A program made the translations under genes and the position numbers. The notes under the pieces are model-generated. The model did not search any database. It had not been told where the DNA came from and saw only the letters and a program-made list of their open reading frames with translations. A DNA stretch of 64,000 nucleotides from Agreia sp. PsM10 (GTDB taxonomy: Bacteria; Actinomycetota; Actinomycetes; Actinomycetales; Microbacteriaceae): contig NZ_JARUXC010000008.1 of assembly GCF_030433855.1 (NCBI RefSeq), positions 62,001-126,000 of the forward strand. The letters run 5' to 3'. Shown one piece after another: positions 38,292 to 54,780 of this stretch (positions are counted from its first letter, which is position 1; every line of letters begins with the position of its first letter).

Positions 38292-39500
38292 TCAGCGCGG
38301 CAGCTCTCCGGAGACGACCTCGCCCTTCGAGACCACGGCCACGATGTTGGCGGTGTCGAGATCCGACAGACTCTGCCAGGGCCGACCGCGCATCACGACG
38401 AAGTCGGCGAGCTGGCCGGCGGCGATACGTCCGAGCTTCTGCTCGAGCCTCAACGCGCGACTCGCCCGCGACGTGGCCGCCTGCAGCGCCCGCTCAGGAG
38501 TCCACCCGAAGACGCGCGCCATCAGCCGCACCTCCGCCATCTGATCGCCGAACTTCACGTGGTGACCGTTCGCATCCGTGCCCAGCACGAAGTCGACCCC
38601 GAGGTCGGCGGCCGCCCGCATTCCGGCGTCCCGCTTCTCGACCAGCTGCGCGGCCTTGTCGGCCTGCTCGGACGAGACGCCGTTCTCGCCGGCGGCGATG
38701 CGGTCGTTGATGAGCAGGGTGGGTGCCACGGTGATGCCCGCGGCGGCGATCCGGGATGCCTGCGCCTCGGTCAGCAGGGTGCCGTGCTCGATCGAGTCGA
38801 CGCCCTCGTCGATGGCGACCTCGATGCCGTCGGCGGTGTGCGCGTGGGCCGCGACGCGCATACCGAGCGCGTGGGCCTCGTCGACGATCACGGCGATCTC
38901 CGCCCGCGTGTAGTTGCGCCACGAACTCTTGTCGCCCACCGAGAGAACACCGCCGCTCGTGGCGATCTTCACCCCGTCGGCGCCGGCCCGCGCGAAGTGC
39001 CGCACGAGCTGCCGGCACTGGTCGGGGCCGTCGGCCAGCGGCTTGCGCTGCGTGAACGCGGGCGGAATGAACAGGTCGCCGTGACCGGCGGTCATGCTCA
39101 CCATGCCGTGGGCCTGCATGCGCGGGCCGGTCACGACGCCCGTGTCGATTGCGCGGCGCATCGAGAACTGGATGTCGTCGGCCGACAGATCGCGGATCGT
39201 CGTCACCCCGCCGCGCATCGCCGTGAGGGCGTTCGACAGGCCGTGCAGCGTCTGCTCCTCGACCCGGGTCATCAGCGGCCAGGTGAGGAAGTCTGCGGTG
39301 CCCGGCCCGGCATAGCCGACGATGTGCACATGCGTGTCGATGAGCCCGGGGATCACGCTGAACTCGGGGGTCTCCCCATCGGTGGCCGCGGCGGGTTCGT
39401 CGAAGACGGCGTCGGCGCCCGATCGAGACCAGCTCAGGGATCGGATGCCCGCATCGGCGGTGCCGTCCCAGAGGGCCACGGCGGGAAGGTGCTGGTTCAT
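38292..39500 (-). CDS. Metal-dependent amidohydrolase (imidazolonepropionase/prolidase-like)
   Basis: A 402-residue member of the amidohydrolase superfamily. Metal ligands: HxH in DTHVHIVGY, a probable carbamylated Lys in DGVKIATSGG, His in HAHTADGIE and SIEHGTLL, and Asp in LGTDANGHH. This set matches the group that includes Xaa-Pro dipeptidases and other cyclic-amide hydrolases. It differs from the two ATZ/TRZ-type amidohydrolases further along. It is the last gene of the BMP-type importer unit, 45 bases after the permease, so its substrate is probably imported by that transporter or derived from it. Confidence 0.87.
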   Translation of the reverse strand: MNQHLPAVALWDGTADAGIRSLSWSRSGADAVFDEPAAATDGETPEFSVIPGLIDTHVHIVGYAGPGTADFLTWPLMTRVEEQTLHGLSNALTAMRGGVTTIRDLSADDIQFSMRRAIDTGVVTGPRMQAHGMVSMTAGHGDLFIPPAFTQRKPLADGPDQCRQLVRHFARAGADGVKIATSGGVLSVGDKSSWRNYTRAEIAVIVDEAHALGMRVAAHAHTADGIEVAIDEGVDSIEHGTLLTEAQASRIAAAGITVAPTLLINDRIAAGENGVSSEQADKAAQLVEKRDAGMRAAADLGVDFVLGTDANGHHVKFGDQMAEVRLMARVFGWTPERALQAATSRASRALRLEQKLGRIAAGQLADFVVMRGRPWQSLSDLDTANIVAVVSKGEVVSGELPR

Positions 39501-39545
39501 GGTGCTCTCTCTTGTGGTGCGGGCGGTTCTGGAAGACGGGCGAGT

Positions 39546-40856
39546 CTAGCTGCGCGAGTTCTTGCGGGGGAAGAGATGACCGAGCGCGGCCGGCGGTCGC
39601 ATCGTGGTTCCGGCGACCACGAGCACGGCCAGGGTCACGAGGTAGGGCGCGGCGGTCGGCAGCTCGCTGGGCAGCGGCACGAACACGAACACCAGCACGA
39701 GGGCGATGCCGAGCAGCAGCGGGGCGAGCCCGCCGCGGCGCTTGCCCGCGAACATCCGGCTGAGACCGATCGCCACGAAGACGATCGCCAGAATGAAGAG
39801 CAGGGCCTTGAACGTCTCCGGCCTGCCGAGCCCGACGGCGTCGCTGAAGCCGAACAGGCTCGACCCCAGGAAGACGCCCGACGGCATCCAGTTGCCGAAG
39901 ATGAGCGTCGCGAGACCGATGAATCCTCTGCCCGCTGTCTGATTCTCGACATAGGCCTGCGAGATGAGGGCCAGATAGCCGCCCGCGAATCCGGCGAGAC
40001 CGCTGCCCACGAGCACCGCCACCCAGCGCGTGCGGTGCACGCTGCCGCCGAGGGCCTGCAGTGCTGCGGGCTGCTCGCCGGCGGCCCGCCAGCGCAGCCC
40101 GAACGGGGTGCGCCACAGGATGTATGCCGTCGCGGGAATGAGGAGCAGTCCGATGATCGCCGCGAGAGAGACGTCACGCGTGAGCCCGCCCACGATTCCG
40201 CCCAGCTGGGTGATCACCGGGATGCCCGATGCCTCCATGGCACGGGTCGCGTCCAGGGTGCCGAATCCTCCCGAGAGGAAGGGGATGCCGATGTTCGGCA
40301 ACGAGCCGTCGATGCGCGGTGACCGCGAGATCGTGCCTCCGTCGACCCCGTTGAAGACGATGTCCGACATGAAACGGGCGAGCGCCGCGGCGACCACGTT
40401 GATCGAGACGCCGACGATGAGCTGGTTGAGTCCCATCTCGATGCAGAGCACGGCCATCAGCAGACCGAAGACGAGACCGCCCACGATTCCTCCGCCGAGC
40501 GCGGCCCATGGCCCCCAGAACCAGCCGAAGATGCCGGCCATCCAGGTGCCGCCGATCATCATGCCCTCGAGGCCGACGTTGATGATGCCCGCGCGCTCGG
40601 AGTACAGGCCGCCGATAGCGACGACCGCGATGGGCACGGTGAGGCGCAGGGCCGAGCCCCAGGTGGATGACGCCGAGATTCCGGGGGCGTCGGCCACGTA
40701 CTGCGCCACGACGATCAGCGCGAAACCGAGAAGGCTCCAGCGCAGGGCGGCGCGGAGGGTGCGCCGGCTGGGCGCGAGCGAGCGCGGAGCGGCGGCGACG
40801 GTCTTCGTCGCGCCGTCGACGGTCAGGCCGGCGGCGGCCCCACTGCTGTCGGTCAT
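39546..40856 (-). CDS. Nucleoside-type ABC importer, permease 2
   Basis: A 436-residue permease of the BPD_transp_2 (branched-chain/ribose/nucleoside) family with about ten hydrophobic helices. The family motif SERAGIINVGLEGMMIGGTW is at about residues 84-103, and a cytosolic EAA-like loop lies near GLRWRAAGEQPAALQALGG. It pairs with the next permease, as in RnsC/RnsD or NupB/NupC nucleoside importers. Its ATG overlaps the stop of that gene (ATGA). Residues 1-45 are a polar Ala/Ser-rich extension. Confidence 0.92.
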   Translation of the reverse strand: MTDSSGAAAGLTVDGATKTVAAAPRSLAPSRRTLRAALRWSLLGFALIVVAQYVADAPGISASSTWGSALRLTVPIAVVAIGGLYSERAGIINVGLEGMMIGGTWMAGIFGWFWGPWAALGGGIVGGLVFGLLMAVLCIEMGLNQLIVGVSINVVAAALARFMSDIVFNGVDGGTISRSPRIDGSLPNIGIPFLSGGFGTLDATRAMEASGIPVITQLGGIVGGLTRDVSLAAIIGLLLIPATAYILWRTPFGLRWRAAGEQPAALQALGGSVHRTRWVAVLVGSGLAGFAGGYLALISQAYVENQTAGRGFIGLATLIFGNWMPSGVFLGSSLFGFSDAVGLGRPETFKALLFILAIVFVAIGLSRMFAGKRRGGLAPLLLGIALVLVFVFVPLPSELPTAAPYLVTLAVLVVAGTTMRPPAALGHLFPRKNSRS

Positions 40857-41950
40857 GAGGATGCCTCCACGGTCTGTGCGCCCGCCCTGCGTCGGCCGCG
40901 GATCGCGTTCCACAGCGCGAGTCGGCGATCGGCCTTGTCGGTGAACCAGTAGCCGATGGCGCTCGAGAGAAGGATCACGGCCATGAACACGGAGCCGACC
41001 TCGGTGGGCAGCTGAACGAGGCCGAGCACCTGCGAGCTGCGCTCGACGAACGCGAGCACGAAGGCGCCCACGGCGACTCCGATCGGATGCGATCGGCCGA
41101 GCAGGGCCGCGGCGAGGCCGGTGAACATGAGGTCGGTGGGAAGCGTGCCGTCGAAGCGGAACGCCACGCCGAGCACATGCGGCAGGCCCACCAGTCCTGC
41201 GATCGCGCCGGATCCGAGCATCGCCCAGATGATCCGCCGGTTCACCTTGATGCCGGCCGATTCGGCCGCCTCGGGAGACTTCGCCGCCACCTGCAGGGTG
41301 AACCCGAACGTCGTGCGGTACTGGATCAGATAGAAGACGATGCCGACCACGATGGCCAGAACGAGGAAACCCGAGATCGATGTGCGGTTGCCGATGCCCA
41401 GGTCGACGAGCGCGGGCATCGCCCCGTCGGCGCCGATGATGGCCGTGCCGGTGTTCTGCCCTCCGCCCGAGCGGAAGACGTTGGCGAGCAGGATCGCGAC
41501 GACCGTGGTCGCGATGGCGTTCATGAGGATCGAGGTGATGACCTCGCTGACCCCGCGGTAGACCCGGAGAAGCGCCGGAACCAGAGCCCACAGCGCGCCG
41601 ACCAGGCAGCACACCAGCAGGGTGATGGGCAGTCGCAGGTAGAGCGGCAGGGGCAGATTGGCGGCGACGACCGCGCCCGCCAGCGCGGCGACCCGGTACT
41701 GGCCGTCGACGCCGATGTTGAACAGGCCCATGCGCAGGGCGAAGGCCGCCGCGATGCCGGCGAGGTAGAGCGGCACCGCGTTGTTCAGCGCCGACACGAG
41801 CGAAGCCGGCTCGATGCCGTAGTTCCACATGACCTCGTAGGCGCTGGCGGCCGAGTATCCGCCGAAGGTGAGGAAGAGCGTGGTCACGAGCAGCGCGAGC
41901 AGCACCGATACGACGGGGCCGGCGATCGTGAGCAGGATGCGCCGGGTCAT
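40853..41950 (-). CDS. Nucleoside-type ABC importer, permease 1
   Basis: A 365-residue BPD_transp_2-family permease with about nine to ten helices. Characteristic motifs are LRMGLFNIGVDGQYRVAALA and RGVSEVITSILMNAIA, found in permeases that work with BMP-type binding proteins. It forms the heteromeric channel with the 436-residue permease. Start and stop overlap the neighbouring genes by four bases each, so the ATPase and the two permeases are tightly coupled. Confidence 0.93.
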   Translation of the reverse strand: MTRRILLTIAGPVVSVLLALLVTTLFLTFGGYSAASAYEVMWNYGIEPASLVSALNNAVPLYLAGIAAAFALRMGLFNIGVDGQYRVAALAGAVVAANLPLPLYLRLPITLLVCCLVGALWALVPALLRVYRGVSEVITSILMNAIATTVVAILLANVFRSGGGQNTGTAIIGADGAMPALVDLGIGNRTSISGFLVLAIVVGIVFYLIQYRTTFGFTLQVAAKSPEAAESAGIKVNRRIIWAMLGSGAIAGLVGLPHVLGVAFRFDGTLPTDLMFTGLAAALLGRSHPIGVAVGAFVLAFVERSSQVLGLVQLPTEVGSVFMAVILLSSAIGYWFTDKADRRLALWNAIRGRRRAGAQTVEASS

Positions 41951-43479
41951 GCCGCCGCCTCTGGTTGGCGCCTGACGCCGGTCATGTATTCGCCGAGCTC
42001 CTGCGCATCCACATCTGCCGGGTGCAGTTCGGCGACGATGCGACCGCGGTAGAACACCAGCAGCCGGTCGGAGAGCGAGAGCAGTTCGTCGAGGTCGGCC
42101 GAGATGAGCACCGTGCCGAGACCGCGGTCGCGTGCGGCGGTGAGTTCGGTCCAGACGGCCGACTGGGCGCCGATGTCGACGCCGCGCGTGGGGTGGGCGG
42201 CGATGAGCACATCGGGGGATGAGCCGAGTTCGCGCCCCACGATGAACTTCTGCTGGTTGCCGCCCGAGAGCGACGAGGCGAGGCTCGCGACGGAGCCGCC
42301 GCGCACGTCGAACTTCTCGATGATCGAGGCGGCGGCCGCGGCGGCGCCGGAACGGCTGAACCACGGGCCGCGCTTGATCGGCGCCCTCGAGTGGTAGCCG
42401 AGGGCGGCGTTCTCGCGCAGGGCCATCGACAGCACGAGACCGTCTTTGTGCCTGTCCTCGGGAATGTAGGCCATGCCGCGGGCGCGGCGCTGCTCGGTGG
42501 TCAGAGCACTGATGTCGTGTCCGCCCAGCGACACGGTGCCGGTGCTGGCGGTGCGGCCGAGAAGAGCGAGCAGCAGTTCGGACTGTCCGTTGCCCTCGAC
42601 GCCGGCGATCCCGACGATCTCGCCGCTGTGCACGGCGAACGACACGTCGTCGAGCGCGGCGACCTCGCCGTCGAGACCGACGCTGAGGTTGTCGGCGGAG
42701 AGCACGACGTCGTCGCCGGGCGGCAGGGAGCGGGGGCTCACCGACGGCATCGCCACCTTGACCATCAGCGAGGCGAGTTCGGCGGCGCTGGTCTCCGACG
42801 CGATGCGGTGCCCCACCACCTCGCCCGCTCGGATCACGGTGATCTCGTCGGCGAAGTCGAGCACCTCGTCGAGCTTGTGCGAGATGAAGATCACAGCGGC
42901 GCCCGCGGCGGTGAACGCGCGCATCGCCGCGAACAGCGACTGCGCCTCGCTCGGCACGAGCACCGCCGTGGGCTCGTCGAGGATGATGATGCGGGCGCCG
43001 CGGTAGAGCACCTTGAGGATCTCCACGCGCTGCCGGCCTCCCACGCCGAGCTCGCGCACGACGGCATTCACGTCGACCGGGAAGCCGTTCGTCGCGGCGA
43101 GTTCCGCGACGCTCCGGCGGGCCGCACGGCTGTCGAGCCGCAGGGCGGAACCGGGCTCGTCGGCGAGAACCACGTTCTCCCACACGCGGAGCGCGTCGGC
43201 GAGCAGGAAGTGCTGGTGCACGATGCCGATGCCGGCGCGCTGGGCGTCGCGGGGCGACGAGAACGTGCGCGGCTCGCCCGCGATCGTGATCGTGCCCTCA
43301 TCGGGGTGCTCCTCGCCGGCGAGGATCTTCATGAGGGTCGACTTGCCCGCACCGTTCTCTCCCACGATCGCGTGCACCGTGCCCGCTTTCACGGACAGGT
43401 CGATGCGATCGTTGGCGGTGAAGGTGCCGAACCTCTTGACGATGCCCGTGAGGCGCACCAGCTCTTCCTGCTTCTGCAT
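41947..43479 (-). CDS. Nucleoside-type ABC importer, double ATPase
   Basis: A 510-residue protein with two fused ATPase halves (about 8-235 and 255-500). Half 1: Walker A GENGAGKST, Q-loop GIVHQHFLL, signature changed to ELGVGGRQRVEI, Walker B IIILDEPTAVL. Half 2: a degenerate Walker A GVEGNGQSEL, signature LSGGNQQK, and DVLIAAHPTRGVD, where the usual Walker B catalytic Glu position is His, as is common in this RbsA/RnsB-like group. The ATG at 43479 with AGAAGGA is preferred to the TTG two codons upstream. An 18-base tandem duplication precedes it. Confidence 0.94.
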   Translation of the reverse strand: MQKQEELVRLTGIVKRFGTFTANDRIDLSVKAGTVHAIVGENGAGKSTLMKILAGEEHPDEGTITIAGEPRTFSSPRDAQRAGIGIVHQHFLLADALRVWENVVLADEPGSALRLDSRAARRSVAELAATNGFPVDVNAVVRELGVGGRQRVEILKVLYRGARIIILDEPTAVLVPSEAQSLFAAMRAFTAAGAAVIFISHKLDEVLDFADEITVIRAGEVVGHRIASETSAAELASLMVKVAMPSVSPRSLPPGDDVVLSADNLSVGLDGEVAALDDVSFAVHSGEIVGIAGVEGNGQSELLLALLGRTASTGTVSLGGHDISALTTEQRRARGMAYIPEDRHKDGLVLSMALRENAALGYHSRAPIKRGPWFSRSGAAAAAASIIEKFDVRGGSVASLASSLSGGNQQKFIVGRELGSSPDVLIAAHPTRGVDIGAQSAVWTELTAARDRGLGTVLISADLDELLSLSDRLLVFYRGRIVAELHPADVDAQELGEYMTGVRRQPEAAA

Positions 43480-43485
43480 GGCCAA

Positions 43486-43521
43486 TCCTTCTCGGCTAGA
43501 ACGTCCTTCTCGGCTAGAGCG
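43486..43521. repeat. 18-base tandem duplication carrying the RBS
   Basis: TCCTTCTCGGCTAGAACG (43486-43503) is repeated as TCCTTCTCGGCTAGAGCG (43504-43521), 17 of 18 bases identical. On the coding (minus) strand each copy reads CTAGCCGAGAAGGA, so the stop codon of the binding-protein gene and the AGAAGGA ribosome binding site of the ATPase gene are both doubled. Confidence 0.85.
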
Positions 43522-44560
43522 CCGACGTCACCGTGATCGTTCCGGCGATGATGTCCGCCTTGGCCTTCTCGAGCTGCTCGCTGTACTGGTCGACGAAGCC
43601 GCCCGAGGTCGAGTAGCCGACGCCGTCGTTCGACAGATCGAAGTCCTGCTCGCCCTCTTCGAGGGTTCCATCGAGGAATGCCTTGATCGAGTCCTCGACG
43701 GCCACGTTCACGTTCTTGATGGCCGAGGTCAGGATGTACGGCTTGATCGAGTCGTCGACCTGCTCGTAGACGTCGCCGTCGACCCCGATGGCCCAGTTCT
43801 TCTGGGCGTCGGTGCTGGATGCGGCCGCCTGCTCGTAGACTCCCTGGCCCGATCCGCCGGCTGCGGCGTAGATGACGTCGGCTCCGCTGGAGTACATCGA
43901 TGCCGCGGCCTCCTTGCCCTTGGTCGGGTCGGAGAATCCGGTGAAGTCACCGAGAGGAGCCAGGTAGGTGGAGTCGACCGTGATGTTCGGGTCGACCGAG
44001 GTCGCGCCGGCCTCGAAGCCGACGAAGAAGTTCTGGATGCTCGGCTGGTCGACGCCGCCGATGAATCCCACGTGGCCGGTCTTCGACGCGAGTGCCGCGG
44101 CCATGCCGACGAGGTAGGAGGACTGCTCTGCGGCGAACGAGATGGTGGTGGTGTCGGGGATGACCGTGCCCTTGTCGATGTCGACGGCGACGAACTGCGT
44201 GTCGGGGTGGTCGGTCGTCTGCTCCATGGGGGTCGCGTACTGGAACCCGATGCCGATGGCGAGGCCGGCTCCCTCGGAGATGGCGAGGTCGAGGCGGTCC
44301 TGGTAGTCGTCGGTGTTGGGGCTGGAGAGGTCGATGGGGGTGAAGTCGAGGCTGTCCTGCGCGTCGGTGAAACCCTTGTACGCGCTGTCCATGAACGAGA
44401 AGTCACCCGTCGTTCCGTAGAGCATCGCGACCTTGGGAAGGTCGGGATCGGTGCTGGCGCCCGTGGTGGCCGTCTTGCCGGAGCAGGCCGTGAGCGCGAG
44501 CGAGGCGGCGAGCACGAGGCCGCCGACCGCGAAGAGGCGAGAGCTGTGGATGCGTGACAA
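43514..44560 (-). CDS. BMP-family substrate-binding lipoprotein (nucleoside-type)
   Basis: A 348-residue solute-binding protein of the BMP/PnrA family, which typically binds purine nucleosides. The signal ends in the lipobox LALTAC (Cys near residue 25). The mature domain has VAMLYGTTGDFSFMDSAYKG, FVAVDIDKG, and the ligand-pocket GADVIYAAAGGSGQGVYEQA. The TTG at 44560 is chosen because AAGGAGA is 6 bases upstream and it gives a compact signal peptide; an earlier start would add 34 residues and cover the promoter. First gene of the importer unit, under the LacI-type operators. Confidence 0.92.
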   Translation of the reverse strand: MSRIHSSRLFAVGGLVLAASLALTACSGKTATTGASTDPDLPKVAMLYGTTGDFSFMDSAYKGFTDAQDSLDFTPIDLSSPNTDDYQDRLDLAISEGAGLAIGIGFQYATPMEQTTDHPDTQFVAVDIDKGTVIPDTTTISFAAEQSSYLVGMAAALASKTGHVGFIGGVDQPSIQNFFVGFEAGATSVDPNITVDSTYLAPLGDFTGFSDPTKGKEAAASMYSSGADVIYAAAGGSGQGVYEQAAASSTDAQKNWAIGVDGDVYEQVDDSIKPYILTSAIKNVNVAVEDSIKAFLDGTLEEGEQDFDLSNDGVGYSTSGGFVDQYSEQLEKAKADIIAGTITVTSAL

Positions 44561-44601
44561 GAGGGTCTCCTTCGGACGGTTCGATAGGGCGACGGTACGC
44601 C

Positions 44602-44615
44602 GCAAAACGCTTTGC
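44602..44615. promoter_or_regulatory. LacI-type operator 1 (GCAAAACGCTTTGC)
   Basis: A 14-base near-palindrome with 12 matching positions, located just downstream of the -10 box (TATACT on the minus strand, 44636-44641) of the binding-protein gene. A repressor here would block the importer unit. The sequence matches the sites next to the LacI gene at 53.6-53.7 kb. Confidence 0.75.
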
Positions 44616-44635
44616 AGTGTTTCCCGAATGTTTCG

Positions 44636-44668
44636 AGTATAAGAAATACTCCGGGCGTGCAAAACGAT
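44636..44668 (-). promoter_or_regulatory. Promoter of the BMP-type importer unit
   Basis: Read on the minus strand: TTTGCA as -35 (44658-44663), 16 bases, then TATACT as -10 (44636-44641). Operator 2 overlaps the -35 and operator 1 lies after the -10, a layout typical of repression. Confidence 0.6.
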
Positions 44669-44672
44669 TGGT
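44659..44672. promoter_or_regulatory. LacI-type operator 2 (GCAAAACGATTGGT)
   Basis: The left half GCAAAACGATT is perfect, the right end deviates (GGT for TGC). It overlaps the -35 of the importer unit on the minus strand and lies immediately before TATACAGT, the -10 of the plus-strand gene at 44686. One bound repressor could therefore control both directions. Confidence 0.65.
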
Positions 44673-44685
44673 ATACAGTGCTGCC

Positions 44686-45441
44686 ATGTCTCGCGTCCTG
44701 CTCCTCGGAGAATCCTGGTTCGTCTATTCGGTTCACCAGAAGGGCTTCGACTCCTTTCACACCTCGGAGTTCACTCTGGGCGGGCAGGAGTTCGTGGCCG
44801 CCCTGCGCTCCGCCGGTCACGAGGTCACCCACATTCCGGCGCACGAGATCTCCACGCGCGTGCCCGCCGACGCCGAGGGCATCGCGGCGATCGCCGACGT
44901 CGTCGTGATCTCCGACGTCGGAGCCAACACGTTCCAGCTCCCCCCGGCCACGTTCACCCGGTCGGAGACCCAGCCCGACCGAACGGAGTCGCTGCGCGAG
45001 TTCGTGCAGCTCGGCGGCGGCCTCCTCATGGTCGGCGGCTACCTCACCTTCTCCGGCATCGACGCGAAAGCGCGGTGGGGGCGCACGCCGCTCGCCGAGG
45101 CTCTTCCCGTCGAGATCCTCGATCGCGACGACAGGGTGGAGCTGCCGGCCGGCGCCGCACCGCAGCTCGGCTACGGGCATCCCATCACCCACGGTCTCGA
45201 CGAGCAGTGGCCCGAGCTGCTCGGCCTGAACGAGGTGACCACCCGGCCGGGCGCGGCGACGCTCGCGAGCTGCGCCGGGCATCCACTGCTGGCCGTCGGC
45301 GGATACGGGGCGGGCCGCAGCGCCGCGTTCACCTCCGACCTCGCGCCGCACTGGGCGCCGCCCGCGTTCCTGAGCTGGGCGGGCTATGCCCCGCTCTTCG
45401 ACCGCACGATACGGTGGCTCGCGGGGGAGGAGATCGAATGA
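44686..45441 (+). CDS. GATase1-like protein (PF07090 group)
   Basis: A 251-residue protein. VLLLGESWFVYSVHQKGFDSF and VVVISDVGANTFQLPP mark the PF07090 group of the class I glutamine-amidotransferase-like/ThuA fold. The usual nucleophile elbow with Cys is not present; the only Cys in the region lies in ASCAGHPLLAV, so amidotransferase chemistry is doubtful and a hydrolase or sensing role is possible. TACAGT ends 6 bases before the ATG (leaderless type). It begins a three-gene unit with the deaminase-like and creatininase-like genes, coupled by ATGA and GTGA overlaps. Confidence 0.8.
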   Translation: MSRVLLLGESWFVYSVHQKGFDSFHTSEFTLGGQEFVAALRSAGHEVTHIPAHEISTRVPADAEGIAAIADVVVISDVGANTFQLPPATFTRSETQPDRTESLREFVQLGGGLLMVGGYLTFSGIDAKARWGRTPLAEALPVEILDRDDRVELPAGAAPQLGYGHPITHGLDEQWPELLGLNEVTTRPGAATLASCAGHPLLAVGGYGAGRSAAFTSDLAPHWAPPAFLSWAGYAPLFDRTIRWLAGEEIE

Positions 45442-46883: not shown

Positions 46884-47614
46884 TCGAGGCGGCTCGCTCG
46901 ACCTGGCCGGAGGTGGCCGCGCACGTCGCCGCCACGTCGGGCGTCGCCATCCTGCCGTTCGGCGCGCTCGAGCAGCACGGGCCGCAACTGCCGCTGTCGA
47001 CCGACACCGCGACCGCCCAGGAGGTCGCCCGGCGGCTGGCGACCCTGCTCGACGCGGTGCTGCTGCCGCCGGTGCACTACGGAGAGACCTGGAACAACGC
47101 GGGCTACCCCGGAACCGTCTCGTTGTCGCCGGGCACCGTGACCGCGATCGCCAAGGACATCGGAGCCTCGCTCGTTCTCTCGGGCGTGCGCGCGCTCGTG
47201 ATCGTGAACGGCGACTGGGGCAATCGCGAGCCGCTCGCCCGCGCCGTGAAGGAGCTCGTCGACGAGGGTGTGATCCCGGCGATCGTGCTCGACTACCCGG
47301 GCATGGATGCCGCCATCGACGAGGTGCGCGAGTCGCGGCCCGCTGCTCCCGGGCTGAACCACGCCGAGGAGGTCGAGACCTCGATCATGCTCGCGATCGA
47401 TCCGTCGAGCGTGCATCCCGAGCGCTACGTCGCCGAGTATCCGGTGTTTCCGCCGGAGTTTGGAACCGTGCCGATGCAGCTGCACCCCTTCTCTCCGAGC
47501 GGAGTGTTCGGCGACCCGTCGAGCGCCACGGCCGCCAAGGGGGAGTACATCCTCGCCCGCACGGTGGAGGCCTCCCTCGCAGCGCTGAAAACCTTCCTCG
47601 CCAACCTCCCGTAG
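46880..47614 (+). CDS. Creatininase-family amidohydrolase with altered metal motif
   Basis: A 244-residue member of the creatininase family, which opens cyclic amides or amides of heterocyclic products. The first metal motif LPFGALEQHGPQLPLSTDT (Glu, His, Asp) is intact, and the C-terminal HAEEVETSIML supplies the expected Glu. The second metal motif, normally NGHGGN or NGHYEN, reads NGDWGN here, so the metal-binding His is replaced by Asp. Activity or metal choice may differ. The GTG overlaps the upstream stop, so it is co-translated with the deaminase-like enzyme, whose product is its likely substrate (inference). Confidence 0.87.
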   Translation: MIEAARSTWPEVAAHVAATSGVAILPFGALEQHGPQLPLSTDTATAQEVARRLATLLDAVLLPPVHYGETWNNAGYPGTVSLSPGTVTAIAKDIGASLVLSGVRALVIVNGDWGNREPLARAVKELVDEGVIPAIVLDYPGMDAAIDEVRESRPAAPGLNHAEEVETSIMLAIDPSSVHPERYVAEYPVFPPEFGTVPMQLHPFSPSGVFGDPSSATAAKGEYILARTVEASLAALKTFLANLP

Positions 47615-47697: not shown

Positions 47698-47704
47698 CGC
47701 TAGC

Positions 47705-49069
47705 CTAGGCGTCGTAGTTCTGGATGCTCCTGCCGTGGCTTCTGTCGGTCAGGCGGGCCAGGCGCGGCTGGAGTTCGGCGACCACGGCGGGGATATCGAT
47801 GGTGAGCACCTTCTTGCCGCGCATGAGCACCCGGCCGGCGGCGATCGTGGTGTCGATGTCGTTCGAGCGCGCGCTGTAGACGAGCATGTTGGCGTAGTCG
47901 TGGATCGGCTGGTTGCGCGGCTCCGACAGGTCGACGAGCACGAGGTCGGCCTGGTACCCGGGGGCGAGGCGTCCGATGCTGTCTCCGAGCTGCACGGCCC
48001 GGGCGCTCTTGATCGTGGCGTGTCCCAGCACCTGGCGTGAGGTCAGGTAGGTCTGGTCCCGTTCGAGCGCCTTCTGGGTCAGCGCCATGAACGTCATGCT
48101 CTCCCACACGTCGAGGGTGTTGTTCGAGGCGGCCCCGTCGGTGGCGAGGCCCACGGGGATGCCCGCCGATTCGAGCAGGCGCACCGGTGTGGTGTCCGGC
48201 CCGTGCTTCAGGTATCCCTTGGGCGCGCTGCCGATGCCGATGCTCCCCGTCGCGGCGAGGAACAGCGGCAAATCCTCCGCCACGATGCCGATGCCGTGCG
48301 CGATGAGCAGCTTTCCGTCGAGCAGCCCCGCGCGGCGCAGGGTCTCGATGGGGGTGTGGCCGAAGCGCTCGCGGCTGTGCTTCATCTGGTAGCGCGCCTC
48401 CGAGGCGTGGATGTGCACGAGGAGGTCGTTGTCGCGGGCCGCCTCGGCGGTCTTCGCGAGGTCGTCGTCGGTCACCGTGTAGGGCGCGTGCGGTGCGAGC
48501 GCGGTGGTGATGCGGCCGTCGGCGGCTCCGCGGTTCTCGACCGCGAACTGCAACGATCGCTCCAGCCCGGCCTCGCCGTCGGAGGAGAAGTAGGTGGAGC
48601 CGAGCACCCCGCGCAGCCCGCTTTCGTCGGTGACCCGGGCGATCGCATCCATGTTGAAGTAGTGGTCGGCGAACGTCGTGACGCCGCTGCGGATCATCTC
48701 GGCGGCCGCCAGCCTGGTCGCCAGCTCGACGTCGTCATCGGTGAGGTTCACCTCCATCGGCCAGATGAAGTCGTTGAACCACGTGTCCTCGGGAACGTCT
48801 TCGGCGGCGCCGCGGAACATCACCATCGGCGAGTGTGTGTGGCAGTTGATGAAGCCGGGCATGGCGAGCATTCCGGATGCGTCGATCGTCTCGAGCGCGG
48901 GAATGGGTCGTTCCGAGGGCGGCCGGGATGCGGAGATCGATTCGATGAGCCCGCCGCGCACGACGATGGTCTGGTTCTCGGCGAAATCGACCTCGCCGGC
49001 GTCGGTGTGAACGAGCACGACCGCGTTCGTGATGACGAGGTCGGCGGGGGCGGGCTGCGGATCGGTCAT
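47705..49069 (-). CDS. ATZ/TRZ-family amidohydrolase (aminohydrolase/deaminase), paralogue
   Basis: A 454-residue amidohydrolase with the same active-site set as the gene at 45438: NCHTHSPMVMFRG, HIHASEARYQ, LIAHGIGI, and ATDGAASNNTLD. It is probably a purine-type aminohydrolase (the group includes S-adenosylhomocysteine, 8-oxoguanine and isoxanthopterin deaminases). It lies directly downstream of the phosphorylase gene, consistent with deaminating the released base. The second ATG (49069) is correctly spaced from GGAG; the first (49075) is too close. It ends HGRSIQNYDA, nearly the same tail as its paralogue. Confidence 0.92.
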   Translation of the reverse strand: MTDPQPAPADLVITNAVVLVHTDAGEVDFAENQTIVVRGGLIESISASRPPSERPIPALETIDASGMLAMPGFINCHTHSPMVMFRGAAEDVPEDTWFNDFIWPMEVNLTDDDVELATRLAAAEMIRSGVTTFADHYFNMDAIARVTDESGLRGVLGSTYFSSDGEAGLERSLQFAVENRGAADGRITTALAPHAPYTVTDDDLAKTAEAARDNDLLVHIHASEARYQMKHSRERFGHTPIETLRRAGLLDGKLLIAHGIGIVAEDLPLFLAATGSIGIGSAPKGYLKHGPDTTPVRLLESAGIPVGLATDGAASNNTLDVWESMTFMALTQKALERDQTYLTSRQVLGHATIKSARAVQLGDSIGRLAPGYQADLVLVDLSEPRNQPIHDYANMLVYSARSNDIDTTIAAGRVLMRGKKVLTIDIPAVVAELQPRLARLTDRSHGRSIQNYDA

Positions 49070-49100
49070 GATCATGCTCCTTCGGTGCGCGGGGCGGGGG

Positions 49101-49799
49101 CTACTGCAGCGCCGCGAGGGCGAACGACACCATGTCGGCGAAGGTGGCCTCGCGCTCGGCGGCCGTCATCTCCGAGCCGGGCAGGTCGCTGATCGTGCCC
49201 ACCATCAGGGCCTCGAACTTCTCCTTGAGGGCGACCGCGTAGAGCCCGGCCGCCTCCATGTCGATGCCGATCGTGCCGTAGGCCAGCAGCTTGTCGACGA
49301 GTGTCGTGTCGGGGTTGTAGAAGCTGTCGGTGGTGAACAGCGGGCCCACGTGGATGGTCTTGCCCGTCGCCTCGCCATGCTCGACGGCCTTGCGCAGCAG
49401 CGGGAACGAGGGCGCGTGGCTGAGGGTGACCCCGGGAACCCACTCGGTCGTCATGTTCGAGTTCGTGTGGGCGGCCGAGGCGGCGACCACGTCGCCGAGC
49501 TCGAGGTAGGGCGCGATGCCGCCGATGGTTCCGACCCGGATGATGCGGGTCACGTCGTAGAAGCGGGCCAGCTCGGTCGCGTAGATCGCCATCGAGGGCA
49601 TTCCCATGCCCGAGGCGAGGACCGAGATCGGCTTGCCGTTGAAGGTTCCCGTGTAGCCGAGGATGCCGCGCACCTCGGTGACGAGCTGCGGATCGTCGAA
49701 GAAGGTCTCGGCGATGAGCTTGGCCCTGCGGGGATCGCCGGGCATCAGAACGTCGGGGGCGAAGGCTCCGGCGTCGGCGCCGATGTGGGGAGTGGCCAT
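49101..49799 (-). CDS. deoD: Purine-nucleoside phosphorylase, DeoD type
   Basis: A 232-residue hexameric-type purine-nucleoside phosphorylase, splitting purine (deoxy)ribonucleosides with phosphate into base and ribose-1-phosphate in the cytosol. Family motifs: VLMPGDPRRAKLIAETF, RVGTIGGI, TTDSFYNPD, GIDMEAAGLYAVA (ribose contacts), and the catalytic Asp in TISDLPGSE. It lies between the fused permease gene and an amidohydrolase gene in the same unit, which strongly suggests that this cluster handles nucleosides. Confidence 0.95.
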   Translation of the reverse strand: MATPHIGADAGAFAPDVLMPGDPRRAKLIAETFFDDPQLVTEVRGILGYTGTFNGKPISVLASGMGMPSMAIYATELARFYDVTRIIRVGTIGGIAPYLELGDVVAASAAHTNSNMTTEWVPGVTLSHAPSFPLLRKAVEHGEATGKTIHVGPLFTTDSFYNPDTTLVDKLLAYGTIGIDMEAAGLYAVALKEKFEALMVGTISDLPGSEMTAAEREATFADMVSFALAALQ

Positions 49800-49831
49800 G
49801 ATGTGTCGTCTTTCTTCTGGGGCGGGCGGGG

Positions 49832-51517
49832 TCAGCCGAGCTGCGAGGGTGCGTAGCGCGACAGCACGGCGCGCTCGGCGGCGCTGACCAGGCTGTAGAA
49901 GATGAGGGAGACGGCGGTGAGGATCGCGGCCGCCGCCCAGAGCCCGGTGTAGTCGGAGTGCGCCCGCGAGCTCACGATCTCGTGGCCGAGGCCGTCGCCG
50001 GTCGCGAGCCACTCGGCGAGGGTCGCGGCCAGCACCGCCGTGGGAGCCGCGATGCGCGCTGAGGCGAAGATGGCGGGCAGCGTGTAGGGCAGCTGCAGGC
50101 GCCACAGCGTGCTCCAGACTGAGGAGTCGTAGCTGCGCAGCAGCGTGAACGCGTCGGACGGAACTCGTTTCAGCCCGCCCTGCGTGTTCGCCAGAGTCGG
50201 GAAGAAGGTGACGATCGCGGTGATGGCGACGACACCTCCGAGCCCGCGACCGAGGGCGAGAATCAGCACCGGCGTGAGCACGATGATGGGAACCGAGCGC
50301 AGGGCGACGGCCAGGGGCGTGAGCACCCGTTCCACGACGGGGAACAGAACGAACGACACCGCGGCCGCGATTCCGATCACGAGTCCGGCGATGTAGCCGA
50401 CTCCGGCGTGGACGAGGGTCACGCCCAGCGCGTCGAGCATCACGGCGCGGTTCTCGCTCGCCTCTTCGGCGGTGAACAGGTAGGTGAACACGTCGATCGG
50501 CGACTTGCCCACGAACGGCGACATGTCGAACACGATGAGGTAGGCCCACCACGCGGCGAGGATCACGAGGATCGATCCGACCGTCCAGGCCGCGGCGCGC
50601 ACGGCACGGGTTCCGAGGGATCCGCGCAGCGCCGGCGCCGCCTGCTGGGCGTTCGAGATCGTTGCCGACCACGGAGTGAGCCAGCGTCGCAGGAGGCCGA
50701 AGAGACCGTAGGGCACGGCGGCCATCAGGGTCGCGATCACGGCGACCGACCACACGCGGGCCAGGTCGAGCGACATCAGGCCGTTGATGAGCAGCACGCC
50801 CAGACCGGCCTTCGCCCCGATGAACTCGCCGAAGATCGCGCCGAGCACGGCCGCGGCGGCGCCGATCTGCAGCCCGGTGAGAATCGACGGGGTGCCCGAC
50901 GGCAGCCGCACGAAGCGCAGCGAGCTGAGCGCCCGCCCGCCCCACGCCGTGACCATCGTGAGCGGGCCGCCGTCGGCGGAGCGCAGCCCCAGCATCGTGC
51001 CGACCAGAGTGGTGAAGAACACCGACAGGCCCGCGAGTACGACCTTGGCGGTGTCGGGGTCGAAGGTCAGCTGCAGCAGCGGGTTGACCGCGACGAGCGG
51101 CAGGCAGAACAGGGTGAGCGCCAGCCGCAGGAACAACGACTCGAGGGCCGGAAGCTGCACGAAGAGGATCGCCACGACGATGGCCGCCAGGTTCCCCCAG
51201 AACCACCCGCGCACCGCGATCCACGCCGTGCTGGTGAAGGCTCCGAAATACAGCTGCGGCTCGGTGACCAGGCTCTGGATGATCGCGCTCGGCGACGCGA
51301 GCACGCCCAGTTGCGTGAGCGCGACGTCGGCCAGGATCTCCCACAGGACGACGAGAGCGACGCTCACGAGCGCGGTGGTCACCCACCCCGACAGGGCGGA
51401 GCGGCGGCCGGCGCGCTGGGAACGCGCGCGTTCGGCGACGATCGCCTCCTGCTGCGCCGGCGTGTACCGTGAGGCGGCCGGCGAGGTCGAGGCCGGTGTC
51501 GAGGTCGACACGCTCAC
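49832..51517 (-). CDS. ABC importer with two permease domains fused
   Basis: A 561-residue membrane protein made of two BPD_transp_1 permease domains in one chain. Domain 1 (about residues 45-270) has the EAA-type loop [20 protein letters not shown] and domain 2 (about 310-560) has [20 protein letters not shown]. Such permeases usually occur as homodimers of about 260 residues; the fusion fixes a heterodimer. It works with the ATPase upstream and the NMT1/THI5-like binding protein. The GTG start overlaps the stop of the ATPase gene (GTGA). Confidence 0.92.
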
Positions 51518-52308
51518 GCCTCGACCGCCTGCAGGGACTCCTCATCGGCGCCCGCGTGCAGCAGCGAACTCAGCTCGTCGCAGGCCGCGTGGAACTCGGG
51601 GGTCGAGAGCAGTTCGCGGCGTCGGGGCCGCTCGAAGTCGATGGTGATGTCGCCCACGATCCGCCCCGGCCGGGGCGACATGACGATCACGCGGTCGGCC
51701 AAAAAGGCCGCCTCCGAGATCGAGTGGGTCACGAGAAGGGCGGTCGCGCTCGTGGCACTCCAGAGCTTCTGCAGCTCCTCGTTCATGCGCTGGCGGGTGA
51801 TCTCGTCGAGGGCGCCGAACGGCTCGTCGAGAAGCAGGATCTCGGGTTCTGCGACGATCGCCCGCGCGATCGCGACCCGCTGGCGCATGCCGCCCGACAA
51901 TTGCGACGGTCGCGCATCCGCGAAGCCGTCGAGCCCGACGAGCGTGATCAACTCGTCGATGCGGCTCTTCGGAATGCCGACGCCCATGACCTGGCCGGGC
52001 AGGCGGATGTTGTCTCGAACGCTGCGCCACGGCAGCAGCGACGGGTCCTGCAGGGCGAGGCCCAGCCGATGGGCGGTGCGGATCGACGAGGGGCTCTCGC
52101 CGTGGATCGTCACCTCGCCCGCCGAGTACGACTCGAGGTCGGCCAGGATGCGGAGGATCGTGGACTTGCCGCAGCCCGACGGGCCGAGGAGCGCGGTGAA
52201 CGACCCCTGGGGCACGGCGAGGGAGATGTCGTCGAGTGCGAGAACATCGCTCTTCTTCGACGAGTAGACCTTCGTCAGGTTGCTGAGGGTGAAGCCGGTG
52301 CCGTCCAC
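51514..52308 (-). CDS. ABC importer ATPase (SsuB/TauB/ThiZ type)
   Basis: A 264-residue ATPase of the nitrate/sulfonate/pyrimidine group. Walker A is GPSGCGKST, the Q-loop [11 protein letters not shown], the signature LSGGMRQR, Walker [14 protein letters not shown], and the H-loop His lies in [10 protein letters not shown] place the start at the GTG 52308, with AAGGAC about 9 bases upstream; an earlier GTG at 52383 would add 25 residues rich in Pro and His with no similarity to the family. Its stop overlaps the fused permease gene. Confidence 0.93.
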
Positions 52309-52398
52309 GTCGGGTGTCCTTGTCGTCGAGTGCGGGTGGTGCGAGTGGATGCCGCGGGTGGGGGGCGTCGGGTGCGCCCCCACCCGCGGCGGTCGGTT

Positions 52399-53487
52399 CT
52401 ACTGCAGGCTGGACTTGCCGCCGTAGATGTCGTCGAGCAGGGAGTTGTCGAAGAGCGACGAGTCGACTCCGGTGATGCCGAGGGTCGTGAGCGTGTCGAC
52501 GTTCTTCTCGATGCCCTCGTCGGACATCCAGAACAGGCCGTGCTCGTCGGTCTCGTCGGTCACGAGCAGATCCATCTGGCGCTCGGCCTGCTTGGTCTGC
52601 TCCTCGACCGTGAGGCCTCCGTCTTTCGCGTAGTCGTTGACCGTGAGGTCGACGGCCTCGGTGGGATCGGCGACATAGCTCTGCCATCCCTCGATCTCTC
52701 CCTTGAGGAAGCCCTCGATGGCCGCCTTCTTGGCCGGGTCCTCGAGGGACTCCTTCGTGACGGCGTAGACCTGCGCGTAGACATCGAGCCCGAAGTCGGC
52801 GGTGAGGAAGGTGACTCCCTCTTTTCCGGTCGACTCCTCGTAGGCGATGGGCTGCTCGCTGTAGAAGACCCAGAGGCCGTCGACCTCGCCGCTGACCAGC
52901 GGGGCGACGTCGAAGCCGACCGGCACCGACGTGACCTTCGAGGCGTCGACGTCATTGACCTCGAGCAGCGCGTCCTGCGCCGCCTCGTCGCCGCTGGGAA
53001 CGCCGATCTTCATCCCCTCCATGTCGGCCGGGGTGGCGATCGGCTTGTCGGGGCTCGAGAGGATCGCGAGGGGGTTCTTCTGGAATCCTGCGGCGATGAT
53101 CACGAGGTCGGCGCCCTGCTCGTTGGCACGGGCGACGGTGTCGGCGTTGCCCATTCCGATGTCGGCCTGGCCCGAGACAACCGCGGCCATCGAGTCGACG
53201 TCGGGGCCGCCGGGCAGGATGTCGACGTCGACGCCGTTTTTGGCGTAGTACCCCTCGGAGTCGGCGACGTAGCTGCCGCCGAACTGCACGAGCGGGATCC
53301 ACGAGGTCTGCAGGGTGAGGGCGACCGGACTGTCGGAGGACGGGGTCTCGGAACTGGCACTGCTGCTGCAGCCGGCGAGCGCCAGCACGGCCGACAGGCC
53401 CAGGGCGGCGCCGGCGAGCAGCCTCGTGGGGCGTCGGGCGGGGGAGGGGCGGGAGGTGCTGAGGGTGAAGGGGGAACGGGAGTGCAT
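52399..53487 (-). CDS. NMT1/THI5-like substrate-binding lipoprotein
   Basis: A 362-residue solute-binding protein. It has an Arg-rich N-terminus, a hydrophobic signal and the lipobox LALAGC (Cys near residue 40). The mature part follows the NMT1/THI5 and SsuA/TauA fold: LQTSWIPLVQFGGSYVADSEG, then GPDVDSMAAVVSGQADIGMG and KIGVPSGDEAAQD. Relatives bind pyrimidine precursors of thiamine, formyl-aminopyrimidines, riboflavin or sulfonates. Given the adjacent phosphorylase and deaminase genes, a nucleobase-like ligand is the best guess. AGGAG precedes the ATG. Its upstream region has two LacI-type operators. Confidence 0.92.
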   Translation of the reverse strand: MHSRSPFTLSTSRPSPARRPTRLLAGAALGLSAVLALAGCSSSASSETPSSDSPVALTLQTSWIPLVQFGGSYVADSEGYYAKNGVDVDILPGGPDVDSMAAVVSGQADIGMGNADTVARANEQGADLVIIAAGFQKNPLAILSSPDKPIATPADMEGMKIGVPSGDEAAQDALLEVNDVDASKVTSVPVGFDVAPLVSGEVDGLWVFYSEQPIAYEESTGKEGVTFLTADFGLDVYAQVYAVTKESLEDPAKKAAIEGFLKGEIEGWQSYVADPTEAVDLTVNDYAKDGGLTVEEQTKQAERQMDLLVTDETDEHGLFWMSDEGIEKNVDTLTTLGITGVDSSLFDNSLLDDIYGGKSSLQ

Positions 53488-53560
53488 TGATTCTCCTAAG
53501 CGGGTGGGAGGCTCTGGCGGGCATGCGGCAGGCGCACAGGACTGTGGTGCGGGTCGGGCT

Positions 53561-53574
53561 GCAAATCGTTTTGC
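53561..53574. promoter_or_regulatory. LacI-type operator 3 (GCAAATCGTTTTGC)
   Basis: A 14-base near-palindrome upstream of the binding-protein gene at 53487, matching the sites at 44602 and 44659. Its position 74 bases before that ATG fits the promoter of the second importer unit. Confidence 0.75.
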
Positions 53575-53697
53575 GACTTCTCTGTCCGACGCTACGGGCA
53601 GTGTGTTTCAGCCCGATTTCTTCCTGTTTCTGGACTGTAAAAGAAAGGCGCTCGCCCGCTCGGGTCGTACCTCTCTTATGCGGTCGAGTTTTCGGTC

Positions 53698-53711
53698 GCA
53701 ACTCGTTTTGC
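53698..53711. promoter_or_regulatory. LacI-type operator 4 (GCAACTCGTTTTGC)
   Basis: A second site in the same divergent region, 52 bases before the GTG of the LacI-family gene, so the regulator probably also controls itself. It overlaps the perfect palindrome TTTTGCAAAA (53706-53715). Confidence 0.72.
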
Positions 53712-53763
53712 AAAATGCGACACAGGGTCGTGAGTGCGCGGTTCTCTCGGTTACTGTGAGTTC

Positions 53764-54780
53764 GTGACCGACACCCCATCGAAGCCGTGGACCATGCAGC
53801 AGATCGCTGCCGCCGCCGGCGTGAGTGTCACCACCGTGTCGCACACCCTCTCGGGAAAGCGACCCGTGAACCCCGCGACGGCCGAGCGCATCCAGAAGCT
53901 GATCGCCGAGTTCGAGTACGTTCCCGACTCCGGCGCCCAGCGCCTCAAGTCCGGGCGCAGCGGAATGATCGGCCTGGCCGTGCCCGACATCTCGCACTGG
54001 TACTTCGGTCGCATCGCGCGCGGCGTCGAGGAGGTGGCCGACGAACTCGACTACGGACTCATCATCTGCAGCACGTCGAACTCCGACCCGCGCCGGGAGA
54101 AGCGCTACTTCAACCTGCTGCGCACCCGGTCGATCGAAGGGCTGATCTACACCGCGAGCAGGGAGATCTCGGCGAGCGACGAACTCGTGCGGGTGTCGGG
54201 CAGCTCGCCCATCGTCTTCGCCGACGAGAGGGTCGACGCCCTGCCCGACGTTCCGTCGGTCACCTCGAGCAACTTCGTGGGGGCGCAGGTGCTCGGCCGG
54301 CACCTGCGCGACCTCGGGCACACCCGGGCCGTCATCATCGCCGGGTTCGCGGGCCTGCACTCGACGATCGAGCGCACCAAGGCCATCAAGGAGTCGTTCC
54401 CGAATGCGCTGACTCTGCACGGCGACTTCGAGCTGAAGTCGGGCTACGACCTCGTCTCCGACCTGCTCGCCCACGAGGTGAGGTTCACCGCGCTCTTCGG
54501 CTGCAACGACTACATGGCGATCGGCGCCATGACCAGGCTCCGCGAGGCCGGCCTGCGCGTTCCCGAAGACGTCTCCGTGGTCGGGTTCGACGACGTCGAC
54601 ATGGCCGCGATCGTCACCCCGGGGCTCACCACGGTACGACAGGACATGGCCGAGATCGGCCGACGCTCGGCGCACCTGCTCATCGCCGGGCTCCACGCGG
54701 GCGGCTTCGACGCCGTCGAATCGGAGTCGCTGCCGACAGAGCTCATTCTGCGCGGCTCGACAGGCCCCGCGCCGCAGTAG
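53764..54780 (+). CDS. LacI-family transcriptional regulator
   Basis: A 338-residue LacI/GalR regulator. The N-terminal HTH is TMQQIAAAAGVSVTTVSHTL (residues 10-29), followed by the hinge helix NPATAERIQKLIAEF, and a periplasmic-binding-protein-like ligand domain from residue 66 (MIGLAVPDISHWYFGRI), with FGCNDYMAIGAM and VVGFDDVDMAAIVTPGLTTV near the end. It starts with GTG. It is divergent from the second importer unit, and its likely operators are GCAAAWCGWTTTGC sites at 53.6 kb and 44.6 kb. The inducer is probably the imported substrate or a breakdown product. Confidence 0.93.
   Translation: MTDTPSKPWTMQQIAAAAGVSVTTVSHTLSGKRPVNPATAERIQKLIAEFEYVPDSGAQRLKSGRSGMIGLAVPDISHWYFGRIARGVEEVADELDYGLIICSTSNSDPRREKRYFNLLRTRSIEGLIYTASREISASDELVRVSGSSPIVFADERVDALPDVPSVTSSNFVGAQVLGRHLRDLGHTRAVIIAGFAGLHSTIERTKAIKESFPNALTLHGDFELKSGYDLVSDLLAHEVRFTALFGCNDYMAIGAMTRLREAGLRVPEDVSVVGFDDVDMAAIVTPGLTTVRQDMAEIGRRSAHLLIAGLHAGGFDAVESESLPTELILRGSTGPAPQ

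Follow-up and report, generated by a model that had tools for sequence, protein, structure and literature searches.

Positions 38292 to 54780 of the 64,000-nucleotide stretch of Agreia sp. PsM10 DNA that we analysed (the window) very likely encode a dedicated LacI-controlled regulon for the uptake and catabolism of nucleosides, with adenosine and related purine nucleosides as the probable substrates. The locus combines a BMP-type and an NMT1-type ATP-binding cassette (ABC) importer with a DeoD-type purine nucleoside phosphorylase, three amidohydrolases, a protein of family PF07090, a creatininase-like protein (CRE) and a LacI-family regulator. This gene content, its synteny in relatives, the co-occurrence of the genes across phyla and the operator-like sites common to the promoters are direct observations. 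What is new here is the link of the CRE clade and PF07090, in more than one phylum, to nucleoside catabolism, together with a branch of NMT1-type importers that lies beside nucleoside genes. The source genome is a 4.01-Mb assembly of 106 contigs from the family Microbacteriaceae, and its nearest named relative in our PF07090 scan is Agreia sp. Leaf283 (PF07090 at 96%).

Using gene calls based on codon-position GC and family assignments from Pfam and NCBIfam scans, we recovered every gene that a first-pass annotation of the sequence had named. The locus consists of two divergent pairs of units, transcribed outward from ~44.6 kb and ~53.6 kb. At the first, the minus-strand unit encodes a BMP-type substrate-binding lipoprotein (43514–44605; PF02608, 171 bits, with TmpC, BmpD and other lipoproteins as PDB relatives), a double ATPase with two PF00005 stretches (41947–43485), permease 1 (40853–41950, from gene call and synteny), permease 2 (39546–40856, from gene call, synteny and an ABC_B6_perm_1 match below its cut-off) and, last, a cog1228-type amidohydrolase resembling prolidases and carboxypeptidases (38292–39500; PF01979). 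Judging from aligned homologues, the true start of the lipoprotein probably lies ~48 bases inside the called start. The opposing plus-strand unit specifies a GATase1-like PF07090 protein that lacks a cysteine nucleophile (44686–45441; 293 bits; relatives 3soz and 2gk3), the ATZ/TRZ-type (cog0402) deaminase-like amidohydrolase AHa (45438–46883; PF01979, close to structures including 4f0r) and CRE, a creatininase-family hydrolase in which NGDWGN replaces NGH (46880–47614; PF02633, 211 bits, together with a tree and a structural model). At the second, the minus-strand unit encodes an NMT1/THI5-type substrate-binding protein (52399–53487; PF09084 and fold search), its ATPase (51514–52383, from gene call and synteny), a double-length permease (49832–51517; each half with matches of SsuC/SaoP type that fall below the cut-offs), DeoD (49101–49799; NF004489 and TIGR00107) and AHb (47705–49075; PF01979 and synteny), a second ATZ/TRZ-type deaminase-like amidohydrolase, whose place is taken by adenosine deaminase (ADA) in several relatives. 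The LacI-family gene (53734–54780; PF00356 and PF13377) faces it on the plus strand. The arrangement goes beyond chance, as its order is kept in other Microbacteriaceae and none of 40 control regions had a BMP, nucleosidase, AHa/AHb-type amidohydrolase, CRE, NMT or PF07090 gene. A gene that we read as a phosphoketolase (54941–57481) adjoins the LacI gene; we rejected it as a member of the system, as it was mapped in one of 80 related loci, that of Agreia sp. Leaf283.

Both divergent promoters, when searched for palindromes, proved to have one LacI-type site in common. The candidate operators are GCAAAACGCTTTGC at 44602–44615, which is kept in Agreia sp. Leaf283, and GCAAATCGTTTTGC at 53561–53574, to which a pattern search added GCAACTCGTTTTGC, with one mismatch, at 53698–53711. 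A weaker candidate with two mismatches (44659–44672) overlaps the −35 hexamer of a sigma-70-like promoter sequence for the BMP unit (44636–44663, minus strand, a consensus match only). Within the window, GCAAAWCGWTTTGC (at most two mismatches) has four matches against 0.14 expected, a number reached by none of 100 shuffles, and all four fall inside the two divergent promoters. Across the whole 4.01-Mb genome, GCAAANCGNTTTGC (at most one mismatch) occurs at three places, which correspond to window positions 44602, 53561 and 53698. The number of sites is ordinary; what is telling is their placement, all in these two promoter regions. Sites with at most two mismatches also numbered 25 in the nine related loci L115–L123, compared with 15 in the 40 control regions, and in the five Streptomyces loci scanned (of seven) one site precedes AHa and another lies between DeoD and the BMP genes. 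By sequence match, then, the promoters of the gene set carry a common palindromic operator-like site of the kind that a LacI-controlled nucleoside regulon would have, and because the same site stands in both promoter regions, the two halves probably belong to a single regulon. Known LacI-family regulators that control the use of nucleosides are AdeR, HpxR and UriR (PMC4052901), and RbsR3 of the Bifidobacterium RbsR3/RihC regulon, whose consensus site TGATAAAACGTTTTATCA (PMC4746261) has, like the operator found here, a CG at its centre with A- and T-rich arms on either side. Those regulons differ from ours in that, in the portions of the two papers available to us, PF07090, creatininase-like and NMT1 genes are not named; the strings 'amidotransferase' and 'creatinin' have no occurrence in the main text of PMC4052901. 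Nor did we find the gene set described in the literature searched, which was seen in part and lay mostly outside subscription journals.

To assess how often these genes travel together, we examined PF07090 loci in two samples. Sampling 299 genomes of the family gave 29 with a PF07090 match, seven of them (source genome included) at 72% or above, and the loci from these genomes hold the same gene set with exchanges. A PF07090 profile search of genome contigs from 84,980 species gave 95 relatives, of which we kept the best 80, comprising 28 actinobacterial and 52 other loci, several on short contigs and with near-relatives all counted. The control consisted of 40 hand-picked 20-kb regions at round coordinates, all actinobacterial. 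Our gene caller, adapted to the codon bias of high-GC genomes, does not work on low-GC loci, so genes in the loci were counted by tblastn. The BMP, DeoD, AHa, AHb, CRE, NMT and PF07090 queries were genes of the window; the IUNH, NDT, GUAB, SMALL, ADE, CDA, FMDA, PTE, RBK and ADA queries were drawn from the loci themselves, which makes their counts partly circular. The 28 actinobacterial loci contained BMP genes in 17, a nucleosidase in 18, AH-type amidohydrolases in 17, CRE in nine, NMT in seven and ADA in 10. The corresponding figures for the 52 other loci were 29, 38, 16, 12, two and zero, and these loci further held cytidine deaminase (15), adenine deaminase (15) and formamidase-like genes (21). 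At the same threshold, each of these genes, and PF07090, was absent from all 40 control regions, in which LacI genes were found three times. The first-pass annotation had staked its proposal on such co-occurrence, and neighbourhood analysis bore it out, with the partner genes recurring across phyla.

The makeup of the loci varies between lineages. Streptomyces loci show the row AHa-LacI-PF07090-DeoD, followed by a BMP importer where the locus reaches far enough, and in Cellulomonas, Actinotalea and Modestobacter PF07090 accompanies changing mixtures of nucleoside-hydrolase-, distant ADA-, ribokinase- or phosphotriesterase-like genes. Several loci from Devosia, Rhodobacterales and related bacteria have, each with gaps, an amidohydrolase, a nucleoside hydrolase and a BMP importer divergent from cytidine deaminase, CRE, LacI, PF07090 and adenine deaminase. 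In three loci (L140 from Rhodobacterales, L149 from Devosia, and L273, which came from an independent search), an NMT1 importer lies beside PF07090, CRE, an ATZ/TRZ-type amidohydrolase and a nucleoside hydrolase, and L140 and L273 carry a BMP substrate-binding protein as well. Together with the common operator and the recurrence across phyla, these loci support the earlier proposal of one nucleoside system with two importers. A VanA_C gene of Rieske oxygenase type, possibly for N-demethylation, was seen near another nucleoside locus (L178:11966–12550).

The creatininase-like protein belongs to a clade of its own. CREs of PF07090 loci form one 22-row clade (support 99/95) that joins Microbacteriaceae with Alphaproteobacteria; a Kaistia copy (L164) falls outside it. 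The tree had 58 rows, 51 after we dropped seven judged to be near-duplicates; its CREs from outside PF07090 loci are 29 best actinobacterial matches, two paralogues from the source genome, one further locus and one plasmid, so the clade need not be exclusive to PF07090 loci. On a plasmid of Alicyclobacillus dauci (L195), a creatininase-family gene lies between a phosphotriesterase-related gene and a KDGP aldolase gene, divergent from a sugar-type ABC importer. In fold and in most motif residues, CRE resembles creatininase, mycofactocin MftE and other PF02633 enzymes: in its structural model (mean predicted local distance difference test score, pLDDT, 86.8) creatininase is the nearest relative, with a template-modelling (TM) score of ~0.78 and ~30% identity. 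It differs in scoring below the cut-offs of both the creatininase model TIGR04448 (126.8 against 235) and the MftE model TIGR03964 (126.3 against 172), in its separate tree clade and in its motif. The creatininase sequence NGHYEN reads NGDWGN in the Microbacteriaceae CRE copies examined, so that the creatininase metal ligands His120 and Glu122 are Asp and Gly there; eight of ten alphaproteobacterial members of the clade have NGHFGN. We rejected creatinine, mycofactocin and sulfonate pathways on the basis of curated cut-offs and gene context.

In a reverse test independent of PF07090, we used the CRE from locus L144 to search 297 genomes of the order to which that locus belongs. Nine loci, the query included, matched at 59% identity or more, and among the other eight CRE-clade loci, all examined, an adenine-deaminase-like gene was present in eight and a BMP gene in seven; PF07090 was present in two. 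Of the 12 lower-scoring CRE loci, ten were examined, and none of these ten had a BMP or an adenine deaminase gene. From these counts, the CRE clade goes with purine-nucleoside catabolism even in loci without PF07090, as read from gene neighbourhoods.

The PF07090 protein had been described as GATase1-like, and the family match held up, as did a full-length likeness to the PF07090 proteins STM1381 (3soz) and 2gk3; it is a glutamine amidotransferase by name only, without the catalytic cysteine. The cysteine of class I glutamine amidotransferases is absent from the stretch GGGxxMxGGYxTF, the putative nucleophile elbow by our reading of the alignment, in all seven rows of that alignment. Of 80 relatives, 71 match this stretch, none with a cysteine, and the other nine lack a cysteine there too. 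We therefore rejected PF07090 as a working amidotransferase. We know of no role for either PF07090 or the creatininase-like clade; searches under PF07090, DUF1355 and STM1381, in the literature accessible to us, gave no characterisation and only a type III secretion prediction.

The chemistry is best indicated by DeoD and its neighbours. DeoD exceeds the cut-offs of NF004489 (260 bits against 230) and TIGR00107 (233.6 against 232.25) and misses that of a third model, NF009914 (243.8 against 338). AHa and AHb are 48% identical, and in a seven-row alignment the catalytic set (H103, H105, H247, E250, H284 and D338 of AHa) is invariant; by analogy with TM0936, this HxH, His, Glu, His, Asp set would have metal-binding and catalytic roles, and a conserved Glu (E132 of AHa) may mark ribosyl binding. 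The closest solved relatives of both include the cog0402 proteins 4f0r (titled a methylthioadenosine/S-adenosylhomocysteine (MTA/SAH) deaminase), 4dzh and 4gbd, whose catalytic positions AHa and AHb retain; the titles of the latter two state no activity. Both proteins miss the NCBIfam equivalog cut-off for N-ethylammeline chlorohydrolase (312 for AHa and 346 for AHb, against 609) and fall below the cut-offs of the MTA/SAH, 8-oxoguanine and guanine deaminase models. Although all three amidohydrolases of the first-pass annotation match PF01979, the one at 38292–39500 is cog1228-like and not an ATZ/TRZ deaminase. It scores 232.8 against the cut-off of 500 for the Xaa-Pro dipeptidase NF051886, has the L-Arg carboxypeptidase 3mtw as its best PDB match, and has counterparts in nine of the 28 actinobacterial PF07090 loci. 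In L036 (9906–11306), the position that CRE holds in relatives is taken by a protein that reads as M24/creatinase-like and matches no NCBIfam family.

All nine distinct Microbacteriaceae loci with a DeoD/NMT half (the window, L115, L116, L118, L119, L120, L122, L123 and L035; L033, L034, L036 and L037 duplicate L115, L116, L118 and L123, each pair being counted once) have either AHb or ADA: AHb alone in three, ADA beside DeoD in four, both in one (L122) and ADA within the PF07090 operon in one (L123). Three of the relatives' ADA proteins were scanned and scored 383–411 bits in NCBIfam, just under the cut-off of 412; the others were assigned by similarity. The position of ADA beside DeoD in relatives suggests that deamination precedes phosphorolysis, and the best clue to the chemistry is this slot, which would fit nucleoside-type deamination of a 6-aminopurine coupled to phosphorolysis.

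Both importers fit a nucleoside system. The BMP importer has the parts of the BMP/PnrA type, namely a PF02608 substrate-binding protein, a double ATPase and two permeases. We take the ligands of TmpC/PnrA to be nucleosides and nupABC of Ruegeria pomeroyi to be of BMP type; these systems resemble ours in the family of the binding protein, the double ATPase, the two permeases and adjacent nucleosidase genes, and ours differs in being coupled to a second, NMT1-type importer. The nupABC genes are described as serving thymidine transport (PMC10130141), and another nucleoside ABC transporter is listed in PMC9870897. The NMT1 binding protein matches PF09084 at 146.3 bits (cut-off 20.5), with fold matches as well, and falls far short of the SsuA sulfonate-binding model TIGR01728 (31.5 against 163.5). 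With its structural model (mean pLDDT 81.4) as query, a fold search placed thiamin- and aminopyrimidine-binding proteins and Thi5 nearest, followed by TauA and SsuA. ThiY-like thiamin binders of NMT1 type (3ix1 and 4nmy) are the closest solved relatives by sequence and by fold, yet identity in the fold alignment is ~20%, and the gene context here is nucleoside, not thiamin.

That context is consistent. In all nine Microbacteriaceae loci with the DeoD/NMT half, DeoD adjoins the NMT1 permease. A search of 396 genomes from the order gave nine (source genome included) with a permease match at E ≤ 1e-80; of the eight other loci, five lie near a nucleoside 2-deoxyribosyltransferase-like gene, four of these five also near an IMPDH-like gene (each Pfam-checked in one locus), and two lie beside a nucleoside-hydrolase-like gene (one scanned for family, below cut-offs). 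Altogether, distant relatives of the permease are near nucleoside-type genes in seven of eight loci. A neighbour of PF07090 in alphaproteobacteria is a small protein (L191:10747–11325; also in L140, L142, L147 and L178) whose similarity to the C-terminus of MgsA is weak and below cut-off; five distant genomes of actinobacteria (L104–L108) encode the same kind of protein within their NMT1 operon.

In the regulon that we propose, the two importers would take up nucleosides, bases or both, deamination of the nucleoside would fall to AHb, AHa or the two together, and DeoD would split it with phosphate, the ribose-1-phosphate and the base passing to central metabolism. LacI would keep the two divergent promoter regions repressed as long as no inducer derived from nucleosides is bound. 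Accessory steps of this catabolism may be supplied by PF07090 and CRE. We infer the substrates, the order of steps and the repression; the roles given to PF07090, CRE and the 38292 amidohydrolase are guesses. As a more speculative extension, which we consider less likely than not, the CRE clade, as a partner of adenine and adenosine deaminases, and PF07090 might together perform an overlooked conserved step of purine-nucleoside catabolism that follows BMP/NMT1 import in several phyla, on a ring-opened (formamidopyrimidine) or N6-acylated or hypermodified adenosine, or on a ribosyl remnant.

Several findings weigh against a single dedicated purine-nucleoside regulon. The operator pattern written backward, used as a control, has four matches in the whole genome against three for GCAAANCGNTTTGC. 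Loci L129 and L189 lack the operator, their sole mapped LacI gene being of another type (LACI3), and in L120 the operator occurs only in the NMT half. PF07090 was found in just two of the eight CRE-clade loci of the reverse test, and L109 is an NMT1-permease locus without a recognised nucleoside gene. The adenine-, cytidine- and adenosine-deaminase calls in relatives lie below NCBIfam cut-offs, the first two passing those of Pfam. The source genome has two further ADA genes outside the locus, so AHb may serve a substrate related to adenosine. As L122 carries AHb alongside ADA, AHb need not be an adenosine deaminase and may do more than deaminate adenosine, which weakens the idea that it is a plain ADA replacement. 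Finally, in 11 Microbacteriaceae loci with 10-kb flanks, the DeoD/NMT half was found in seven, the BMP half in seven, both in four and neither in one (L117), which speaks against a strictly single pathway.

That last count is also an argument for two independent neighbouring pathways, in which NMT1 importer, DeoD and deaminase would handle purine nucleosides, and BMP importer, PF07090, AHa and CRE another N-heterocycle: a single half is present in six of the 11 loci, and a different LacI gene lies near the BMP half of L120, away from its operator. We consider this unlikely, given that the same operator stands in both promoters of the window, that Streptomyces has AHa, PF07090, DeoD and the BMP importer in one row, and that the NMT1 importer is joined with nucleoside hydrolase, amidohydrolase, CRE and PF07090 in L140, L149 and L273, two of which add the BMP binding protein. 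Less probable still is an NMT1 importer for sulfonates or thiamin precursors that has nothing to do with nucleosides. The fold neighbours of the binding protein and the SsuC/SaoP-like permease would suit such ligands; the shortfall against the SsuA model, the invariable adjacency of DeoD in Microbacteriaceae and the nucleoside genes near distant copies do not, and by sequence and model a sulfonate ligand is not favoured.

Two other possibilities concern what is degraded, and each strikes us as possible, if doubtful. One is a regulon for hypermodified or damaged nucleosides, such as N6-substituted or N-acylated adenosines or ring-opened formamidopyrimidine nucleosides, in which AHa and AHb would remove the substituted amine; cleavage of an amide or opening of a ring would then be the task of CRE and of the 38292 amidohydrolase. 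Amide-hydrolase-type genes do exceed the needs of adenosine (CRE, the cog1228 amidohydrolase and the M24-like protein of L036/L118), formamidase-family genes occur in 21 of the 52 non-actinobacterial PF07090 loci, and the extra ADA genes of L122 and of the source genome point the same way; however, we saw in the loci no gene dedicated to modified nucleosides, and genes of the ADA, cytidine deaminase and adenine deaminase families are frequent partners. The other is that the substrate of PF07090 and CRE is not the base but the sugar moiety (ribose or an oxidised derivative of it). The more distant PF07090 loci in the sample from the family Microbacteriaceae (n = 22) have BMP, CRE and AH genes in none and a nucleosidase in three, with ribokinase-like genes in eight and phosphotriesterase-like genes in eight, so the PF07090 family is not confined to nucleosides and occurs in sugar operons too, a further point against our reading. 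Non-nucleoside operons of this kind also include RpiB-like genes, two rhizobial plasmid records pair PF07090 with ribokinase/PfkB, phosphotriesterase, SgcQ-like and TenA genes, and plasmids of Rhodococcus and Arthrobacter pair it with flavin monooxygenase, phosphatase, ribokinase/PfkB and PRPP synthetase. The Alicyclobacillus relative of CRE, with its phosphotriesterase-related, KDGP aldolase and xylulokinase genes, fits this picture as well. Ribose or a ribosyl-amine as the substrate of PF07090 would, by analogy, fit many of these contexts; against a sugar substrate, the CRE clade is accompanied by an adenine-deaminase-like gene in eight of the eight alphaproteobacterial loci examined, which points to the base. 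A Roseivivax plasmid copy of PF07090, with a peptide-type importer beside protocatechuate genes, fits neither the nucleoside nor the ribose idea.

The plasmid clusters of Arthrobacter (L201) and Rhodococcus (L200) also have nicotinate phosphoribosyltransferase, which suggests a ribosylation cycle; their makeup is reminiscent of pyridine catabolism, and literature searches on this as a lead for PF07090 gave nothing usable. Elsewhere in the source genome, a second NMT1/creatininase-like/amidohydrolase cluster (L061; G000:C64:268000–287900) contains an 8-oxoguanine deaminase (613 against a cut-off of 532), cytosine-deaminase-like, RutB/biuret-hydrolase-like and XdhC-like genes, two creatininase-family genes and two genes read as NMT1-type substrate-binding proteins, one without a family match. 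A further nucleoside cluster (L113; G000:C31:234000–248000) has an ADA gene over cut-offs, two nucleoside-hydrolase-like genes, a BMP substrate-binding protein gene and an adenosylhomocysteinase-like gene.

A dedicated LacI-controlled nucleoside regulon would give PF07090, the creatininase-like clade and the NMT1-importer branch a common and testable context in nucleoside catabolism, and its short operator predicts regulon members in other actinobacteria. Should the substrate of CRE or PF07090 turn out to be a nucleoside that is modified or damaged, this would reveal a branch missing from the known scheme of RNA turnover.

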